Origin: Bacillaceae bacterium IKA-2
GTDB lineage: Bacteria > Bacillota > Bacilli > Bacillales > Anaerobacillaceae
DNA length: 64,000 nt
Direction of reading: 5' to 3'
Assembly: GCA_031761875.1 (NCBI GenBank)
Contig: CP134492.1
Span: 434,001 to 498,000 of the forward strand
In this document: positions 1,812-48,815 of the stretch, piece by piece
Position numbering within the stretch: the stretch's first letter is position 1
Layout: every line of letters starts with the position of its first letter
Made by a program: the position numbers and the translations under genes
The notes under the pieces: model-generated
The model's input: the letters and a program-made list of their open reading frames with translations, nothing else
Told to the model about the DNA's origin: nothing
The model's database searches: none

Positions 1812-3629
1812 TTGAAAAGATTTTCAGTTGCTTTTTTAGTTGTTTTTCTGACTGTGTTTAGTGTTTTTCAGTTTAATAACCAAGAAAATATAGTGTATGG
1901 CGATAGTAGTAGAGTAGCAGTTGGAGAAGTGACGGCAACAATATTAAATGTCAGAAGTGAACCTAATAGCACTAGCAAAATGATTTCTCGAGTTTCCAAT
2001 GGTGCAAAAATTTCAATCTATGAAACTGGTGTTAATAAAGAGTGGTTAAAAATAAAGATTAATAACCAAACGGCGTATGTACACGCAAACTTTGTAAAGA
2101 TTACTGAGACCTTTCTTCCTTCACAAGCCAATTTAGTGAAAATAGCTGAGGGCCAAGTAAAGGCTTCTAATTTAAATGTGAGAAGCGAACCGAAGACTAG
2201 CTCCCAGAGAATTGGCGTTCTAGTAAATGGAACAAAGGTTGATATTTATGAAACTGGCGTCAATAAAGACTGGCTAAAAATAAAAATGGGCAACAAATCA
2301 GGATATGTCCATGCTAACTTTGTAACCATCAACCAAGCAAGCAACACACAAGCGCCACCATCGAACGAAATCGTAACAAAAGGTAAAGTGACAGCAAGTA
2401 CCTTAAATGTCCGAAGCAAGCCCAATATGACGGCTACTAGAAGCGGAACTTTATCTTCTGGAGATCAAATTGATATTTATGAGACAGGAGTCAATAAAGA
2501 TTGGCTAAAAATAAAAATAGGCAGCCAATGGGGATATGTTCATGCTAACTTTGTCACCATCAGCAAAAGCAGTAACACTCCTGCCCCAAGCCCAGCTCCA
2601 GCGCCGACCCCAGTCGTAACGAAAGGACAAGTAACAGCGTCCAATTTAAATGTCCGAAGCGAAGCGAATATGACGGCCACTAGAATTAACACTTTATCTT
2701 CTGGAGATCAAGTTGATATTTATGAGACAGGAGTCAATAAAGATTGGCTAAAAATAAAAATAGGCAGCCAATGGGGATATGTTCATGCTAACTTTGTCAC
2801 CATCGGCCAAAGCAGCAACACTCCGGCCCCAAGCCGATCTTCACCGCCGACCCCAGTCGTAACGAAAGGACAAGTAACAGCTTCCAATTTAAATGTCCGA
2901 AGCGAAGCCAATATGACAGCTACTAGAATCAGCACTTTATCTTCTGGAAATCAAGTTGATATTTATGAGACAGGCGTCAATAAAGACTGGCTAAAAATAA
3001 AAATAGGCAGCCAATGGGGATATGTTCATGCTAGCTTTGTGAATATCTTAGGAACCCCACCAAACAGCAATGCATCATCAAAGCTCAAAAATAAAGTGAT
3101 CGTTATTGATCCTGGCCATGGTGGAAATGATCCAGGAGCAGTTGCTTTTTCAATAGCAGAAAAAAATGTTGTTCTAGCTCACTCGCTACTATTGCGGGAC
3201 AAATTGCAACAAGCGGGAGCCAAAGTAGTGATGACAAGAACTGGGGATTCATTTCTATCTCTCAGTGCAAGAACAAAAATCGCTAATAACGAAAATGCAG
3301 ATATGCTTATCAGTATTCATGCCAATTCATCTTTTGTAAGCACTGCTACTGGCACAGAAATATTTTGGAATAGTAATTTTCAATCAGCCAACAGCCGTTT
3401 ATTAGCAACTAGTCTCCAATCTAAGTTGGTCAACAGTTTAGGAACAAGAGATCGTGGCGTCAAACAAGCTAACTTTCAAGTTATCAGGAGTACGCAAATA
3501 CCAAGTGTATTAATAGAACTCGGATTTTTGACGAACTATAACGAGGCGAAGCGATTAGCTGATCCACAGTTTCAGGACCAAGCAGCAGAAGCAATGCTTG
3601 AGGGAATAGTAGATTACTATAATAATTAA
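1812..3629 (+). CDS. Secreted N-acetylmuramoyl-L-alanine amidase with five SH3b wall-binding repeats
   Basis: 605 residues from a TTG start preceded by GGGGTGAT. A signal peptide (about 1-30) is followed by five SH3b repeats (about 35-410), each with a LNVRSEPN...IYETGVNK-WLKIK-GYVHANFV pattern, joined by Pro/Ala/Ser linkers. The C-terminal Amidase_3 domain (about 428-602) has zinc ligands His436 (DPGHGG), Glu450 (AEKN) and His503 (SIHAN), and catalytic Glu569 (ELGFLTN). It should cut the amide bond between muramic acid and L-Ala in peptidoglycan outside the cell. Repeats 3-5 are nearly identical in DNA sequence, which points to recent internal duplication. The layout resembles Bacillus SH3b-Amidase_3 autolysins; the exact orthologue is not assigned. 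Confidence 0.93.
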   Translation: MKRFSVAFLVVFLTVFSVFQFNNQENIVYGDSSRVAVGEVTATILNVRSEPNSTSKMISRVSNGAKISIYETGVNKEWLKIKINNQTAYVHANFVKITETFLPSQANLVKIAEGQVKASNLNVRSEPKTSSQRIGVLVNGTKVDIYETGVNKDWLKIKMGNKSGYVHANFVTINQASNTQAPPSNEIVTKGKVTASTLNVRSKPNMTATRSGTLSSGDQIDIYETGVNKDWLKIKIGSQWGYVHANFVTISKSSNTPAPSPAPAPTPVVTKGQVTASNLNVRSEANMTATRINTLSSGDQVDIYETGVNKDWLKIKIGSQWGYVHANFVTIGQSSNTPAPSRSSPPTPVVTKGQVTASNLNVRSEANMTATRISTLSSGNQVDIYETGVNKDWLKIKIGSQWGYVHASFVNILGTPPNSNASSKLKNKVIVIDPGHGGNDPGAVAFSIAEKNVVLAHSLLLRDKLQQAGAKVVMTRTGDSFLSLSARTKIANNENADMLISIHANSSFVSTATGTEIFWNSNFQSANSRLLATSLQSKLVNSLGTRDRGVKQANFQVIRSTQIPSVLIELGFLTNYNEAKRLADPQFQDQAAEAMLEGIVDYYNN

Positions 3630-3687
3630 AGAAATTGGACCGTCGCTGTTAAAATAAATCTATTAACCAAGTTAGCGAGGCATTTAA

Positions 3688-3810
3688 ATGAGAGAATCAA
3701 AAGACATTAGGTGGGGTTCGCCAATAAGTGTAGCTTGTGTCGGGATCTTTTTGATTGGACTTGCGCTCCTATTAGATACAATTTGGAAACATTTTTTAAG
3801 GTTTGGATAA
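3688..3810 (+). CDS. Possible 40-residue single-pass membrane protein
   Basis: Starts at ATG 3688 with GAGG (3677-3680) seven bases upstream. The product begins MRESKDIRWG, has one hydrophobic segment (about 13-30) and ends WKHFLRFG. It lies between the amidase and a bidirectional terminator. I recognise no family. An overlapping reverse-strand frame (3707-3901) is also open, so coding is not certain. Confidence 0.35.
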   Translation: MRESKDIRWGSPISVACVGIFLIGLALLLDTIWKHFLRFG

Positions 3811-41645: not shown

Positions 41646-41790
41646 GGTGAAAAAGTTGGAAAGGAAAAGTAAAAAGTTGGTTAGTTGGAAAGTTGGAAAG
41701 GAAGAGCAAGAGCAAGTGATAAACCAATGCCCATAGGGCTTTTGACCTTCCTAACCAACTAACGGCTAACCAACTAGCCAACTTCACTAA
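41646..41790. repeat. AGTTGGAAAG / CCAACT inverted repeat cluster (first site)
   Basis: A purine block with AGTTGGAAAG units (41646-41710) is followed by GGGCTTTTGACCTTCC and a pyrimidine block with CCAACTA units (41736-41790). It is a degenerate member of the same family found at 44084-44132 and through 46003-48212. There is no gene here. Confidence 0.7.
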
Positions 41791-44132: not shown

Positions 44133-44212
44133 AAATTTTACGAGAGAACATTTGCTATGAAAATATTTTCTCATAAGTTTTCGTTTTTCTATTTTATACG
44201 GAGGTGCTGGTA

Positions 44213-46126
44213 TTGACGTTGAAAAAAAGAATCGCTGGCTTAGTTGTTGTCGATTCACTGATTGTCCTTATATCTATTTATATTGGTAATTTTATTCTTG
44301 CTCCAACTAGCGAGTTACTAAAGTATCCGATTGTCGCTAGCTCAATAGTCTTATTAATTTCCCATCACTTGCTCGCTTCACACTATCATCTTTATCAAAG
44401 AGTTTGGTCATATGCGAGTATCGGTGAGCTATTGTCGATTACAAAGGTTGTTACCTTTTCAGTTGTGATTACCGCTTTCTATCAGGCTATTTTTATTCAA
44501 ACGATCTTTTTTCGAACGATGTTTATTACCTGGATGCTACATATTCTCTTAATTGGTGGATCAAGATTTTCTTGGCGACTTTATTGTGATACATACATAA
44601 AGAAAAGACTTGACCAAAAGGATACCTTAATTATTGGTGCTGGTGCCGGTGGGACAATGGTTGCTAGACAACTGCTTCAAAATTGCGAGGCAGAACTTAA
44701 GCCTGTCGCTTTTATTGATGATGACGTGCGCATGCATGGACTTGAAATCATGGGTATCCGTGTTTGGGGTGGTCGCGAAACAATTGAAAGTATTGTCAGT
44801 AAGCAGCAGATTGAGCAAATTATTATTGCGATTCCTTCATTAACGAAGGGTCAGTTAAATGATATTTTTAACGAATGTTCAAAAACAACAGCAAAAACGC
44901 AAATTATCCCGATGCTTGAAGATTTAATGACGGGGAAACTGTCGATTAGTCAAGTTCGTGATGTTGAAGTTGGAGATTTATTAGGCAGAGAAGAAGTTGA
45001 ACTTGATACAGATAAGATTGGTGAAAAGCTAACCGGTAAAACAATCCTTGTTACGGGTGCAGGTGGTTCAATTGGTTCAGAGGTTTGTCGGCAAATCTGC
45101 AAGTTTAAACCTGAGACAATTATTTTATTAGGTCATGGTGAAAATAGTATTTATGAGATTGAACTGGAGTTAAAACGAGCTTACAAAGTGATCAACATCG
45201 AAACGGAAATTGCTGATGTTCAAGATCGTGAGAAAATCTTTACAATTATGAAAAAGTATCGTCCAGATGTTGTTTATCACGCGGCCGCTCATAAGCATGT
45301 ACCACTAATGGAGCGAAATCCAGAAGAAGCGGTTAAGAACAATGTCATCGGTACGAAAAATGTCGCAGAAGCAGCGAGTGCAGCCGCCGTCGGTATTTTT
45401 GTGATGGTTTCGACTGATAAAGCTGTTAATCCAACGAGTGTCATGGGAGCAACAAAACGAATTGCCGAGATGGTCGTGCAGCATATGGATATGATTAGTA
45501 AGACGCGATTTGTCGCAGTACGATTCGGAAATGTACTCGGTAGCCGCGGCAGTGTCATCCCATTGTTTAAAAAGCAAATTGAAGAAGGCGGACCGGTTAC
45601 AGTGACGCACCCAGACATGGTTCGTTATTTTATGACGATTCCAGAAGCGTCAAGATTAGTCTTGCAAGCAGGAGCACTTGCCAAAGGCGGCGAGATCTTC
45701 GTCTTAGACATGGGCGAGCCAGTGCGGATTGTTGATTTAGCGAAGAACTTGATTAAGCTGTCTGGATATACAGAAGCAGAGATCCCGATTGAGTTCACGG
45801 GAATGAGACCTGGCGAAAAGATGTTTGAGGAATTGTTAGGTAAAGATGAGGTACATGCGGAGCAGGTGTATCCGAAGATTTATGTTGGCAAGACACCGAT
45901 GGTTGATATTGGGGTCGCGAATCAGCTGATTAAGTGGCATGGTGCGATGGAGAAGGAAGAGTTGCGGGTGGAGTTATTGGATATAGCTAATTTTAGGAAA
46001 GTCGAAAGTTGGAAAGTTGGAAAGGGAAATCAAAGTCAAAACCGCATCCGGCTAGAACCGAATCAACATTCTAGCTTAAATCTTTTGAACTTGTTCCAAT
46101 TTTTGAAAGTAGAAAGGAAAACCTAA
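44213..46126 (+). CDS. CapD/WbpM/PglF-type UDP-GlcNAc 4,6-dehydratase (copy 2), with a repeat-derived C-terminal tail
   Basis: 637 residues from a TTG at 44213, placed six bases after GGAGGTG; the protein then opens MTLKKR like copy 1 (MTYHRR). Four membrane helices, a CoA-binding-like domain and an SDR domain with VTGAGGSIGSEVCRQI and STDKAVNPTSVMGATKR. From residue 280 on it is nearly identical to copy 1, while the first 120 residues differ clearly. Copy 1 ends shortly after DIANFRK; here the frame continues about 40 residues into the AGTTGGAAAG repeat (SWKVGKG and on), so the tail is probably not native. Likely first enzyme (PglF step) of the diacetylbacillosamine route with the genes at 48816-51212. 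Confidence 0.9.
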   Translation: MTLKKRIAGLVVVDSLIVLISIYIGNFILAPTSELLKYPIVASSIVLLISHHLLASHYHLYQRVWSYASIGELLSITKVVTFSVVITAFYQAIFIQTIFFRTMFITWMLHILLIGGSRFSWRLYCDTYIKKRLDQKDTLIIGAGAGGTMVARQLLQNCEAELKPVAFIDDDVRMHGLEIMGIRVWGGRETIESIVSKQQIEQIIIAIPSLTKGQLNDIFNECSKTTAKTQIIPMLEDLMTGKLSISQVRDVEVGDLLGREEVELDTDKIGEKLTGKTILVTGAGGSIGSEVCRQICKFKPETIILLGHGENSIYEIELELKRAYKVINIETEIADVQDREKIFTIMKKYRPDVVYHAAAHKHVPLMERNPEEAVKNNVIGTKNVAEAASAAAVGIFVMVSTDKAVNPTSVMGATKRIAEMVVQHMDMISKTRFVAVRFGNVLGSRGSVIPLFKKQIEEGGPVTVTHPDMVRYFMTIPEASRLVLQAGALAKGGEIFVLDMGEPVRIVDLAKNLIKLSGYTEAEIPIEFTGMRPGEKMFEELLGKDEVHAEQVYPKIYVGKTPMVDIGVANQLIKWHGAMEKEELRVELLDIANFRKVESWKVGKGNQSQNRIRLEPNQHSSLNLLNLFQFLKVERKT

Positions 46127-46200
46127 ACCAAACAAACTAGGAGAAGCTCTTCGAGTTTTTGACTTTTTTCCAAATTTTTACTTTCTACTTTCCAACTTAT
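46003..46200. repeat. Repeat pair upstream of four-helix-bundle gene copy 1
   Basis: A purine block (AAAGTTGGAAAGTTGGAAAG, 46003-46032, inside the dehydratase frame) and an inverted pyrimidine block (46137-46200: GCTCTTCGAGTTTTTGACTTT, then CTTTCTACTTTCCAACTT) that ends just before the ribosome binding site. Confidence 0.8.
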
Positions 46201-46213
46201 TGGAGGTAAAACA

Positions 46214-46573
46214 ATGTACTCTGATACTAGTAAATTAATGGTTTGGCAGAGATCACACTCATTAGTCTTAAACATTTATAACATCACCAAAGATTTTCCG
46301 AGAGACGAACAGTATGGGTTAACTTCACAGTTAAGAAGAGCGGCTGTATCTGTACCGAGTAACATTGTCGAAGGCAAGGCTCGAGGATCAAATAAGGAAT
46401 ACAAAAGGTTTTTGCTAATAGCCAGAGGATCTCTAGAAGAAGTGAAATATCAATTGTTACTGGCAAAGGATTTGAAGTATATAGATGAAAGAAAGCATGA
46501 AGAAACACTAAAAGCGGCTAAAGAAGTTGGCCGATTGTTAAATGGCCTGTTGGTGGCGATGGAGAAAGAGTGA
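46214..46573 (+). CDS. Four-helix-bundle protein, 23S rRNA intervening-sequence (S23/IVP) family, copy 1
   Basis: 119 residues, TTGGAGGT eight bases ahead of the ATG. Residues fall into four amphipathic helices: KLMVWQRSHSLVLNIYNITKDF, EQYGLTSQLRRAAVSVPSNIVEGKAR, NKEYKRFLLIARGSLEEVKYQLLLAKDL and the last from about 92 to 117. The R-R-A-x-S-x-P-x-N-I-x-E-G core is the family signature. Members occur in 23S rRNA inserts of some bacteria, as stray genes in polysaccharide clusters, and as Avd in diversity-generating retroelements; the fold binds nucleic acid or forms a pentamer barrel. No reverse transcriptase is seen here. Function in this setting is unknown. Confidence 0.9.
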   Translation: MYSDTSKLMVWQRSHSLVLNIYNITKDFPRDEQYGLTSQLRRAAVSVPSNIVEGKARGSNKEYKRFLLIARGSLEEVKYQLLLAKDLKYIDERKHEETLKAAKEVGRLLNGLLVAMEKE

Positions 46574-46599
46574 AATGTTGGACCGTAAGGTCCAGCATT
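46574..46599 (+). other. GNRA-capped hairpin directly after the four-helix-bundle gene (copy 1)
   Basis: AATGTTGGACC pairs with GGTCCAGCATT (11 bp, one G-T) with loop GTAA. It starts at the base after the stop codon and has no T run. Its counterpart at 47395-47420 has a T-A to C-G swap in the stem. Confidence 0.8.
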
Positions 46600-46605
46600 A
46601 AGTAA

Positions 46606-46664
46606 TGCAGCTCTTCGAGCTTTTGACCTTTTCCAACTTTCCAACTTTCTACTTTCCAACTTTA
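46606..46664. repeat. CTCTTCGAGC + CTTTCCAA repeat block
   Basis: GCAGCTCTTCGAGCTTTTGAC then TTTTCCAACTTTCCAACTTT and CTACTTTCCAACTT. It is the clearest tandem member of the family. Confidence 0.85.
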
Positions 46665-46667
46665 TTA

Positions 46668-46868
46668 TTAGGTAAGGATGAGGTACATACAGAGCAGGTT
46701 TATCCGAAGATTTATGTTGGCAAGACGCCAATGGTTGATATTGGGGTCGCGAATCAGCTGATTAAGTGGCATGGTGCGATGGAGAAGGAAGAGTTGCGGG
46801 TTGAGTTATTGGATATAGCTAATTTTAGGAAAGTTGTAAGTTGGAAAGTTGGAAAGGGAAAAAGTTGA
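46668..46868 (+). pseudogene. Remnant 3' end of a CapD-type dehydratase gene
   Basis: Encodes GKDEVHTEQVYPKIYVGKTPMVD to DIANFRK, the last ~60 residues of the 44213 protein, with no start and no rest of the gene. One residue (HTEQ instead of HAEQ) agrees with copy 1 at 37286 and not with the adjacent copy 2. The end again runs into the repeat as SWKVGKGKS. Confidence 0.85.
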
Positions 46869-47021
46869 AAGTTAAAAGTTGGAAGGGAAGGACAAAACCT
46901 TCTAAAACCAACCTAAGAACCTAAGAACCTAAGAACCTAAGAACTTAATACTATGCACTAACTTTCTACTTTATTTCTTTTGACCTTTTCCAACTTTCCA
47001 ACTTTCTGCTTTCCAACTTAT
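46833..47021. repeat. Repeat pair and 8-base microsatellite upstream of four-helix-bundle gene copy 2
   Basis: Purine block AAGTTGGAAAGTTGGAAAGG (46833-46893), then about four CCTAAGAA units (46912-46945), then the pyrimidine block TTTTGACCTTTTCCAACTTT to CCAACTT (46975-47021). Confidence 0.8.
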
Positions 47022-47034
47022 TGGAGGTAAAACA

Positions 47035-47394
47035 ATGTACTCTGATACTAGTAAATTAATGGTTTGGCAGAGATCACACTCATTAGTCTTAAACATTTAT
47101 AACATCACCAAAGATTTTCCGAGGGATGAACAGTATGGGTTAACATCTCAGTTAAGAAGAGCGGCGGTATCTGTACCGAGTAACATTGTCGAAGGCAAGG
47201 CTCGAGGATCAAATAAGGAATACAAAAGGTTTTTGCTAATAGCCAGAGGATCTCTAGAAGAAGTGAAATATCAATTGTTGCTGGCAAAGGATTTGAAGTA
47301 TATAGATGAGAGAAAGTATCAAGAAACACTAAATGCGGCTAAAGAAGTGGGTAGATTGTTAAATGGACTGTTGGTGGCGATGGAGAAAGAATGA
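47035..47394 (+). CDS. Four-helix-bundle protein, 23S rRNA intervening-sequence (S23/IVP) family, copy 2
   Basis: 119 residues, nearly identical to copy 1, with changes at the end of helix 3 and start of helix 4 (ERKYQETLNAAKE instead of ERKHEETLKAAKE). Most base differences are silent, which suggests the protein has been kept under selection since the duplication. The same TTGGAGGT site and the same flanking repeats are present. Function unknown, as for copy 1. Confidence 0.9.
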   Translation: MYSDTSKLMVWQRSHSLVLNIYNITKDFPRDEQYGLTSQLRRAAVSVPSNIVEGKARGSNKEYKRFLLIARGSLEEVKYQLLLAKDLKYIDERKYQETLNAAKEVGRLLNGLLVAMEKE

Positions 47395-47420
47395 AACGCT
47401 GGACCGGAAGGTCCAACGTT
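47395..47420 (+). other. GNRA-capped hairpin directly after the four-helix-bundle gene (copy 2)
   Basis: AACGCTGGACC with GGTCCAACGTT around GGAA. Against copy 1, a T-A pair has become C-G, a T-G pair has become C-A, and the loop is still of GNRA type. It begins at the base after the stop codon. Confidence 0.8.
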
Positions 47421-47426
47421 AAGTAA

Positions 47427-47476
47427 TGCAGCTCTTCGAGCTCTTGACTTTTTCCAACTTTCTACTTTCCAACTTA
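47427..47476. repeat. CTCTTCGAGC + CTTTCCAA repeat block
   Basis: GCAGCTCTTCGAGCTCTTGAC followed by TTTTTCCAACTTTCTACTTT and CCAACTT, as at 46606. Confidence 0.8.
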
Positions 47477-47603
47477 TTCGTGCTTTCGCTTATTTCCGAC
47501 AAAAAATAGCTAACTTTACCAATTTCTAGTTGACAAAAACCGCGTTAATGAGTAGAATTTGTACTCGTAGGACGGTTTTTTATATTCGGTGAGGGTGAAC
47601 GAT

Positions 47604-48122
47604 ATGCTTGATTATTTAATTACATCAAAAACGCGTTTAAAGCTTATTTTAAAGTTTTTCCTTAATACAGAAACGAAGGGTTATTTAAGGGGTTTAGCGA
47701 AAGAATTTGACGAGTCAACGAATTCCGTACGTGTCGAGTTAAATCGATTTGTCGAGGCTGGGTTATTAGATAGTGAGATGGATGGTCGAAAAAAGGTTTA
47801 TATTGCGAATAAGAAACATAATCTCTTTGATGACATCCATAATATTGTTACAAAATTTGTTGGTATTGATCAGCTGGTGGAACAGATTGTTTCTAAGTTG
47901 GGTGATGTCAAGGCAGCTTACATAATTGGAGATTACGCAAGTGGGATAGATTCTGGGGTTATTCAGTTAGTGATTGTTGGTGATGTTGATGGTGAGTATT
48001 TGGGAGAGTTAGTTTTGAAGACTGAGAGTATGATAGACCGGAAAATTAGTGTTGATGTGAAGGAAAAGTGTGATGGAAGTATTGTAGATGAAGGGGTTTT
48101 GGTTGTGTGGGGGGCTATTTAG
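47604..48122 (+). CDS. Winged-helix protein with nucleotidyltransferase-like C-terminal domain (ArsR/MNT-type regulator)
   Basis: 172 residues from ATG 47604 behind GAGGGTG. The N-terminal winged helix (about 1-75) has LILKFFLNTETKGYLRGLAKEF, a helix-turn-helix STNSVRVELNRFVEAGLL and a basic wing DGRKKVYIANK. The C-terminal half (about 95-170) follows the MNT-fold order (VKAAYIIGDYASGIDSGVIQLVIVGD) but with GDYASG for the usual GSxARG, so catalysis is doubtful. Such proteins are found at the heads of polysaccharide clusters and probably regulate them. It sits just before the long leader of the EPS operon, a good place for a local regulator. Confidence 0.8.
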   Translation: MLDYLITSKTRLKLILKFFLNTETKGYLRGLAKEFDESTNSVRVELNRFVEAGLLDSEMDGRKKVYIANKKHNLFDDIHNIVTKFVGIDQLVEQIVSKLGDVKAAYIIGDYASGIDSGVIQLVIVGDVDGEYLGELVLKTESMIDRKISVDVKEKCDGSIVDEGVLVVWGAI

Positions 48123-48157: not shown

Positions 48158-48212
48158 CTAAGTGCTCTTCGAGCTCTTGACCTTTTCCAACTTTCTACTT
48201 TCCACTTTTTAA
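48158..48212. repeat. CTCTTCGAGC + CTTTCCAA repeat block
   Basis: GTGCTCTTCGAGCTCTTGACC, TTTTCCAACTTTCTACTTTCC, ending CACTTTTTAAGG. Last member of the family. Confidence 0.8.
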
Positions 48213-48815
48213 GGTGATGTCTCCTAACCTATATCAACGGAGGTACTCGGTCATTCTGTGGGTGCTTGTAAACAAGTGCCTTAGACACTTATGTTGTCAC
48301 TGGTGTGGTGTGAGGTGGGGTTAAATGCCTCATGTTTTAATTATTTCTTCGAGGAAAATTTAGTAGAGGTCATTGGTTAGTGGCGGTGGGTTCTGGTAAG
48401 TTTTTCTTGGAAAAGTATAATGCTTGATAGCAAGGTCTTAAATTAACTTATTTTCCAACTTGAGAGATTGAATTGAGGTTGCGAGGTGACTACCGTTAAT
48501 AGATTACCACGATATATAGATTTATAGTTTCGATAAAACGAGATTATAACACCATATATTGATTCTTTCCTTAACGCATACTGGTCTTGAGGTGGTTATG
48601 TGGAATGGGTAAAAAATGTTTTTTGTTCCTAAGAAATCGTGAAAAATAAATGAATACAGATAAACACCATTATCGAGGTGACTGTCGTTAATAGATCGAA
48701 ATAGTGTTTAGTAGGTTACTAGTTAATTGGAAAGATTTTAATATTCTAGTTAAGTATTAAGCGACTAAAAAGTAGTTTATAAATAGGGACATAACTAGGA
48801 AGGAAGTTTTCGAGA
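48213..48815 (+). promoter_or_regulatory. 600-base non-coding leader of the EPS operon with a 23-base direct repeat
   Basis: No supported frame. A direct repeat, CGAGGTGACTACCGTTAATAG (48482-48504) and CGAGGTGACTGTCGTTAATAG (48674-48696), has two differences over 23 bases at a distance of 192. A stem GGTGCTT/AAGTGCC lies near 48267-48286. Long leaders before EPS operons can carry antitermination or RNA elements (EAR, LoaP targets), but I do not recognise either here. GGAAGG at about 48800 serves the next gene. Confidence 0.5.

Follow-up and report, generated by a model that had tools for sequence, protein, structure and literature searches.

Two adjacent genes of Bacillaceae bacterium IKA-2 encode four-helix-bundle proteins of the S23/IVP family, and each stands between inverted arms built from short repeated words. 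They lie in a stretch of 64,000 nucleotides (contig CP134492.1, positions 434,001 to 498,000 of the forward strand; assembly GCA_031761875.1) that we call the window and whose own numbering is used for features below. The original prediction proposed that the pair might be a repeat-linked mobile or RNA-binding element. We find that such arms accompany S23 genes across phyla, and that in cyanobacterial plasmids units with gene and arms are present at some sites and missing from their counterparts, which supports the mobile reading in part, whereas movement of the window copies themselves has to be inferred. We consider it likely that the S23 gene and its flanking arms form a mobile element of the type of the intervening sequences (IVS) of rRNA, with S23 as cargo or helper, the rRNA inserts as one branch, and dispersed palindromes of the same words as gene-less derivatives.

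Inverted arms accompany S23 genes across phyla

Of 398 genomes in the phylum, 60 have a PF05635 match above the cut-off. We gathered 60 stretches around S23 matches and 26 further ones from Bacillota and other phyla. Matches covering less than 80% of the model were left out, as were two of 91 full-length ones (identical protein or short flank), giving 89 unique loci; L009–L020 and L047–L075 duplicate other loci and are uncounted. The upstream and downstream flanks were tested for complementarity to one another, the right flank being taken from 36 nt before the stop codon, which lies inside the arm at L179, L182 and L185. A locus was called armed when it beat all 100 shuffles, and other open reading frames (ORFs) of the same loci served as controls. 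Arms were found at 61 of the 89 S23 loci compared to 18 of 370 control ORFs, and at plasmid loci the figures are 11 of 14 and 2 of 32. An earlier version of the test called 52 of the 89 armed (scores against controls, Mann–Whitney p 2.5e-26). Among 72 armed loci the arms are clearly tandem in 63, with a period of 7 in 53, 8 in six, 11 in three and 9 in one. G outnumbers C in the left arm at 47 of 52 loci, and C outnumbers G at three.

The words, mostly of 7 nt and in the window of 8 nt, differ between lineages, so CTTTCCAA, once proposed as the mark of the module, does not serve as one. Counted over 41 genomes, AGTCAGCAGTCAG has 11 matches in its genome of origin and five in four others (two in G137, one each in G106, G051 and G135), while GTGGAGAGTGGAG has 88 in G201 and two in the 40 other genomes, at most one in each. 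An 11-nt dialect, GTTAAACRATRGTTAAAC, is found 30 times in three genomes of three genera whose related S23 genes carry it, and once in the 38 others, that one also an S23 genome. Dispersal away from S23 varies: the 88 matches in G201 go with a single S23 gene, 8 of 11 in G274 lie away from S23, and G055 has 19, of which 12 form one array and two are at S23. Separately, GACTGACGACTGA, chosen as a reversed control, occurs 31 times in G130 and is probably another dispersed word there.

Neighbouring genes were compared for 71 loci, excluding nine rRNA and RNase P loci and the window, and both neighbours were found at 60. They lie on one strand at 49 of these, and S23 is co-directional with them in 45. 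Family matches among the 130 neighbour proteins, some of them overlapping, are to sugar epimerases or dehydratases in 11, Polysacc_synt_2 in 10, DegT aminotransferases in 7, sugar transferases in 5 and flagellar families in 4. Surface-sugar genes are the commonest single setting, not a rule. The polysaccharide cluster suggested originally is thus one setting among several, since units also lie beside ribonucleotide reductase, cas, cmr, VirB10-side and ABC-transporter genes.

Filled and empty sites in cyanobacterial plasmids

S23 matches occur in 29 plasmid records, at least 18 of them from Nostocales by name, and 14 were opened as S23 loci. The units lie between nrdB and nrdA, between cas6 and cas4 (two), between cmr2 and cmr3, near VirB10 genes (two), between a leukotoxin-secretion-like gene and an ABC transporter gene, and at other positions. 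At site 1 (Trichormus, Scytonema) an insert of 428 or 414 bp is missing, by match length, from six plasmids at 97.4–97.9% identity. Two filled and two empty alleles were aligned here, and GTAAT stands twice in the former and once in the latter, a 5-bp target duplication around the 428-bp insert. At the same site, a Brasilonema plasmid (L193, ~1180–1265) has a short palindrome of GGAGTCAGG words without S23 where others hold the S23 unit, and Nostoc C052 has a decayed S23. In two Nostoc plasmids adjacent operon gaps are filled and empty in opposite fashion, with two different dialects. Similarly, PCC 7003 has a unit between cmr2 and cmr3 where PCC 7002 has none, and Nostoc edaphicum has one between nrdB and nrdA where Calothrix NIES-4105 has none. 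The junctions of sites 2, 3 and 4 were read from alignments with a second element or diverged flanks. Arms accompany S23 at filled sites and are missing from empty alleles; the comparison of sites with and without the unit, put forward with the original prediction as its check, places the ends of the unit at its arms.

Related units, 77.8–82.5% identical in DNA, are found at three unrelated sites. In Nostoc N6 a gene-less unit of 182 bp that shares dialect and arms has inserted into the S23 gene itself (L199). Counting its own position, this unit matches 98 places in 43 plasmid records, and in 28 of the records the cover is at least 80%. Precise loss could explain single sites, but hardly a unit inside S23 or related units at three unrelated sites. 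Mobility is supported in cyanobacteria, and we infer that the window copies came by the same route.

S23 inside rRNA and RNase P RNA

An Rfam scan of nine loci placed seven of the S23 genes within large-subunit rRNA and the other two within bacterial RNase P RNA. The RNase P RNA inserts, from two closely related genomes, sit at the tip of a hairpin, which we take to be P12, and their arms extend that stem. One anatomy is seen in three settings: between operon genes, in 23S rRNA and at the tip of an RNase P RNA hairpin. In a tree of 102 proteins, built on few columns and with many open forks, the eight rows with inserts in RNA group as a single clade (SH-aLRT 99), and the rows around it carry the label intergenic, which was taken from a motif test; L130, a partial gene, was left out.

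The gene pair of the window

Both genes of the window are of the S23/IVP family, as the original prediction had it, and match PF05635 and TIGR02436 (Table 1). They follow a PglF-like dehydratase gene and precede an ORF with a sub-threshold PaaX match and then an aminotransferase gene (by eye). Similarity to the dehydratase family stops near 46000, and the remaining ~40 codons of that frame are element sequence.

Table 1. Features of the S23 locus, in window positions (G000, the 4.42-Mb window genome)
Feature	Position	Strand	Evidence
PglF-like UDP-sugar 4,6-dehydratase	44204..46126	+	PF02719 E 1.8e-125; open frame ends 46126
Left purine arm, unit 1 (GGAAAGTCGAAAGTTGGAAAGTTGGAAAGGG)	45996..46026	+	Complementarity 94% with 46627-46657; RNA-fold partner
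Proximal pyrimidine arm, unit 1, core AGCTCTTCGAG	46145..46198	+	Direct-repeat family D2
S23/IVP four-helix-bundle gene, copy 1, 119 aa	46214..46573	+	PF05635 142.4 bits, E 6.9e-42; TIGR02436 133.7 bits
GNRA-loop hairpin (GTAA), starts at base after TGA, copy 1	46574..46599	+	11-position stem
GCTCTTCGAGC terminator-like stem, T run and distal pyrimidine arm, unit 1	46609..46662	+	Repeat families D2, I3; RNA fold
Duplicated dehydratase 3′ end, start of unit 2	46664..46827	+	Protein match G000:480665-480829, 98% identity
Left purine arm, unit 2	46828..46863	+	83-86% complementary to pyrimidine arms (I1, I2)
Proximal pyrimidine arm, unit 2	46978..47019	+	Repeat families D1, D2, I2
S23/IVP gene, copy 2, 119 aa	47035..47394	+	PF05635 144.4 bits, E 1.7e-42; also TIGR02436
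GNRA-loop hairpin (GGAA), directly 3′ of copy 2 stop	47395..47420	+	11-position stem
GCTCTTCGAGC stem and distal pyrimidine arm, unit 2; right limit of duplicated block	47430..47475	+	
Stem and pyrimidine arm like those of the units, 3′ of next gene, without S23	48163..48216	+	GCTCTTCGAGC; D2
Block with two AAGTTGGAAAG words, without S23	41653..41700	-	

Each unit runs from purine arm through proximal pyrimidine arm, ribosome binding site, S23, GNRA hairpin and GCTCTTCGAGC stem (GCTCTTCGAGC at 46610 in unit 1 and 47431 in unit 2) to distal pyrimidine arm. When 45990–46670 is folded as RNA (−184 kcal/mol, z −5.0; none of 20 shuffles went as low), the left purine arm and the distal pyrimidine arm pair with each other and enclose S23. 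The proximal pyrimidine arm of unit 1 would be an alternative partner for the left arm.

The equal surroundings that had been noted for the two genes hold for arms, hairpin and GCTCTTCGAGC, but they have one cause. The units are a single tandem duplication of ~0.8 kb (45832–46663 and 46664–47476, 728 of 792 aligned bases identical) that starts inside the dehydratase gene and stops at the end of the distal arm, so they share their order of features because of one event and are not independent evidence. The broken-off dehydratase 3′ end reported in unit 2 is present, not as an extra but as part of the duplicated segment (46664–46858, a range including the arm, matches 45832–46026 at 185 of 195 bases). 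The spacers differ, that within the upstream palindrome having diverged between units (72 of 99 aligned bases), and the AGCTCTTCGAG at 46145 is additional in unit 1. The S23 proteins are 97% identical; their genes differ at 15 codons, 12 synonymously and three not, a ratio which suggests that the protein has been kept. Two positions of the hairpin stems changed between copies, one by a compensatory change (T-A to C-G) and one from T·G to the non-pair C·A. Whether the GNRA hairpin accompanies S23 elsewhere had been put forward as a check. It seems not to be a general feature, as none was seen by eye in 13 flank pairs, with no systematic search made.

Several side observations belong to this locus. 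Partial copies of the 3′ end of the upstream gene, with word repeats behind each, are seen for the PglF-like gene in the window and in Evansella (L022, ~3460–3800) and for S23 itself (L025), and by eye their right end seems fixed and their left end variable. The next ORF (47589–48122) is regulator-like, with a PaaX match of 21 bits against a cut-off of 24.8, and carries a stem and pyrimidine arm without S23 behind it. A second PglF-like gene of the genome (L210) has no CTTTCCAA word within 1.5 kb on either side, and a DNA search of the window locus against plasmids gave no match.

The repeated word in the window genome

The word CTTTCCAACTT occurs 150 times in the window genome, above chance, compared to five for the reversed word, and the 13-mer CTTTCCAACTTTC at 105 places, of which the 100 listed make up 58 sites more than 1 kb apart. 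The listed places fall 6 on the plus and 45 on the minus strand in the first 1.5 Mb, 42 on plus and 7 on minus beyond 2.4 Mb, and none between 1.4 and 2.4 Mb. This bias by chromosome half looks as if linked to replication direction or gene ends. Forty stretches were fetched around word matches: the main cluster runs from purine to pyrimidine in 18 and in reverse in none, 22 have one kind alone, and a second word, GTTGGTTAG, is present in 19. Outside the window, a distant S23/Avd-like gene (G000:C1:3822750-3824253; L011, L020) and a reverse transcriptase match share a strand at a distance of ~545 nt, and the two look like a diversity-generating retroelement.

A proposed element and its alternatives

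The element that we favour would be ~400–500 bp long and end in two inverted arms of tandem words, which could let a DNA strand or a transcript fold to a hairpin with the S23 gene in its loop. It would insert into gaps between genes, often with neighbours on the same strand, and in one branch into hairpin tips of 23S rRNA and RNase P RNA. In such structured RNAs it might do little harm because the arms close to a stem, and 23S copies, as is known for Coxiella and others, would be cut out by RNase III. Elements that kept their arms after losing the gene would spread as small palindromes; the numerous intergenic GTTGGAAAG...CTTTCCAAC units of the window genome may be such derivatives. At the window locus, the element would have landed in the last codons of the PglF-like gene and then been duplicated in tandem with that gene's 3′ end. 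The S23 protein, whose family has a pentameric member and which is a relative of Avd, may bind the arms and help movement or maintenance; binding to RNA is proposed by analogy with the family.

A number of findings weigh against this proposal. No significant arms are present at 28 of the 89 S23 loci, and 20 control ORFs are armed, nine of them with tandem arms (seven of period 7); palindromes of this kind are thus found next to genes other than S23 too. In random stretches of 20 genomes with and 20 without S23, 6 period-7 palindromes were found in 798 kb (1 after shuffling) compared to 1 in 550 kb (0 after shuffling), counts too few to decide, and plain period-7 tandem arrays are not commoner with S23 (83.9 per Mb, vs 145.4 without, a set raised at all periods). 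Similarity of arms tracks protein identity weakly (Mantel r 0.164, reached in 3 of 1000 permutations, and in 109 of 1000 once pairs more than 60% identical are removed), in an arm extraction that lacked the right arms of the three loci with a stop codon inside the arm. The word AACTAGTAACTAG, found at the flanks in G096, has all 7 of its G096 matches at the S23 locus and 10 more in six other genomes, and is thus not lineage-specific. We had considered arguing for pairing of the arms as RNA from an excess of wobble mismatches and dropped the argument, as there is none (77 G·U, 68 A·C). S23 proteins are weakly basic (the net charge has a median of +2 and is above zero in 68 of 102; +7 for the window copies) and are not known to have a catalytic domain. 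A clean target duplication is seen at one of seven sites, the others being diverged in their flanks or not resolved, and there is no clear one at the 182-bp unit inside S23. Finally, the filled and empty pairs are all cyanobacterial, with none found for the window lineage and no empty allele of the window locus.

The word palindromes might instead be common intergenic repeats or terminators, enlarged by slippage and spreading on their own. S23 elements would then insert in them or acquire them from the genome around, and the gene would play no role in their dispersal. The window genome, with its 150 word matches and two close S23 genes (plus the one distant relative), speaks for this; there the repeats occur genome-wide with no link to the gene, the outcome that the original prediction named as its refutation, and taken alone it would refute a connection between the two. 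Word palindromes also occur in genomes lacking a close S23, namely G003 (three tandem-armed in 200 kb) and G001 (after pglF). A strict sampling of 200 kb of G003 gave five palindromes compared to one after shuffling, with an insensitive detector that gave none in 200 kb of the window genome, where elements exist. The presence of GTTGGTTAG in 19 of 40 clusters fits as well, and some cores are terminator-like by eye. However, the arm statistics across genomes reverse the impression from the window genome. Arms arrive with the gene at filled sites, the flank word of G096 is restricted to the S23 locus within that genome, and the 11-nt dialect is common to three related S23 genes of three genera, with one match in the 38 other genomes searched. 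We regard independent spread as distinctly unlikely. A somewhat less improbable, if still doubtful, explanation is that the S23 unit is a passenger moved in trans by a reverse transcriptase, a Y1 (RAYT-type) or a DDE transposase, with S23 having an unrelated host or selfish function. The units that were read carry no gene except S23, the 5-bp target duplication fits a cut-and-paste enzyme, and searches of the window genome gave six matches to RVT_1 and seven to Y1. Known transposase ends keep their sequence, by contrast to S23 arms, which keep their architecture. As for particular enzymes, in six genomes searched RVT_1 is missing from S23-bearing G096 and Y1 from S23-bearing G201 (88 word copies, 91% complete), so we rejected both as a common helper.

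A further alternative, which concerns the window and which we hold to be possible while leaning against it, is that nothing moved there recently: slippage at repeat-rich DNA would have doubled a vertically inherited S23 gene of the pgl cluster, the rest being drift. S23 is also found behind a PglF-like gene in Bacillus FJAT-47783 (L024, by Pfam) and Evansella (by eye), and in several others it precedes an aminotransferase gene like that of the window or a sugar transferase gene (by eye). The breakpoints of the duplication have just a short ATT in common (by eye), and Evansella L022 has extra dehydratase 3′ ends with palindromes. Against it, the gene is patchy in the genus, with a close S23 in none of six other genomes (best E 1.2e-4; two of them 62% and 80% complete), and in G004 word palindromes without S23 stand between pglF and a galU-like gene (by eye).

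Relation to known systems

The mobile element proposed here most resembles the 23S rRNA IVS. Both have an S23/IVP protein (142–144 bits for the window copies, with a PF05635 cut-off of 33.8) and terminal inverted repeats that close a long stem around the ORF, the window arms being of 31 nt, 94% complementary, with the fold at z −5.0. According to the available part of its description, the Coxiella IVS is of 428 nt with a 28-bp stem, RNase III excision and tandem heptamers beside the gene (PMC4990558), and the site 1 insert of the plasmids has the same length, 428 bp. Unlike that IVS, the window copies lie between the PglF-like and the next protein gene and not in rRNA, their ribosome binding site looks good by eye, their amino-acid changes are few, and the gene-less relatives of the unit are dispersed. 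An older idea that the IVS ORF served mobility is given in the text available from the same source as a hypothesis, without filled and empty sites; it also describes the S23 protein of Xanthomonas as a homopentamer (PMC4990558), and IVP is reported in part of another paper from 16S and 23S inserts of candidate phyla radiation bacteria (PMC11270868). Relatives by sequence that have a known structure are 2gsc (E 3.4e-23) and 2rld (2.6e-5).

Like REPIN/RAYT, as far as the available text describes it, we see a low-copy gene between inverted repeats that are also scattered as gene-less hairpins (PMC3116915). The differences are that S23 is a four-helix bundle and no Y1 transposase, that its arms are of tandem 7–8-nt words rather than conserved REP (repetitive extragenic palindromic) palindromes, and that S23 units themselves move. 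Y1 (PF01797) has no match in the window interval 434001–498000. The short tandemly repeated repetitive (STRR) heptamers of cyanobacteria have no protein link in the part of their description available (PMC2670836); 11 of 14 plasmid S23 loci have period-7 arms (self-identity at least 0.6), and the window word is of 8 nt. GGGAATC of Xanthomonas (70 and 75 inverted pairs in two species) and TAACTGA of Beggiatoaceae are described, in the text available, as mostly intergenic heptamer repeats (PMC4692102, PMC4679880). The second of these papers raises a repeat-binding protein as a possible mobile part (PMC4679880), and in the available text of both a term search finds no ‘S23’ and no protein partner is identified. 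Judged from title and start of abstract, none of the open-licence PMC matches listed describes word-armed S23 units outside rRNA or an S23 gene within RNase P RNA, which does not prove absence.

Avd belongs to the same superfamily: the window proteins reach 45–46 bits with bAvd, compared to a Pfam cut-off of 40, and match DivGenRetAVD weakly. Avd works with a reverse transcriptase in retroelements, whereas the window interval has no RVT_1 match, and the 49.2 and 47.9 bits of its S23 proteins lie below the NCBIfam Avd cut-off of 80. No relative was found in the viral contigs searched; a phage search gave four distant matches (29.1–30.4% identity), three of them annotated accessory variability determinant.

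Implications

Taken further, S23/IVP might be the protein partner of one large bacterial family of hairpin elements that includes STRR, GGGAATC, TAACTGA, the rRNA IVS and the RNase P inserts, with a pentamer that reads folded arms by shape and spreads them, possibly via an RNA or single-strand intermediate akin to that of Avd. This extension is speculative, and we think it somewhat unlikely in its full form.

The nature of the IVS and the role of their S23 protein have been a standing question since ~1990 (PMC4990558). Should the rRNA inserts be a branch of a widespread, mostly intergenic element, filled and empty sites in cyanobacteria and Bacillota that can be cultured would make this question testable. 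If the proposal is true, RNase P RNA joins the host RNAs of S23-coding inserts, the heptamer repeats of several phyla gain a candidate protein partner, and scattered short repeats that are now unexplained may be accounted for.

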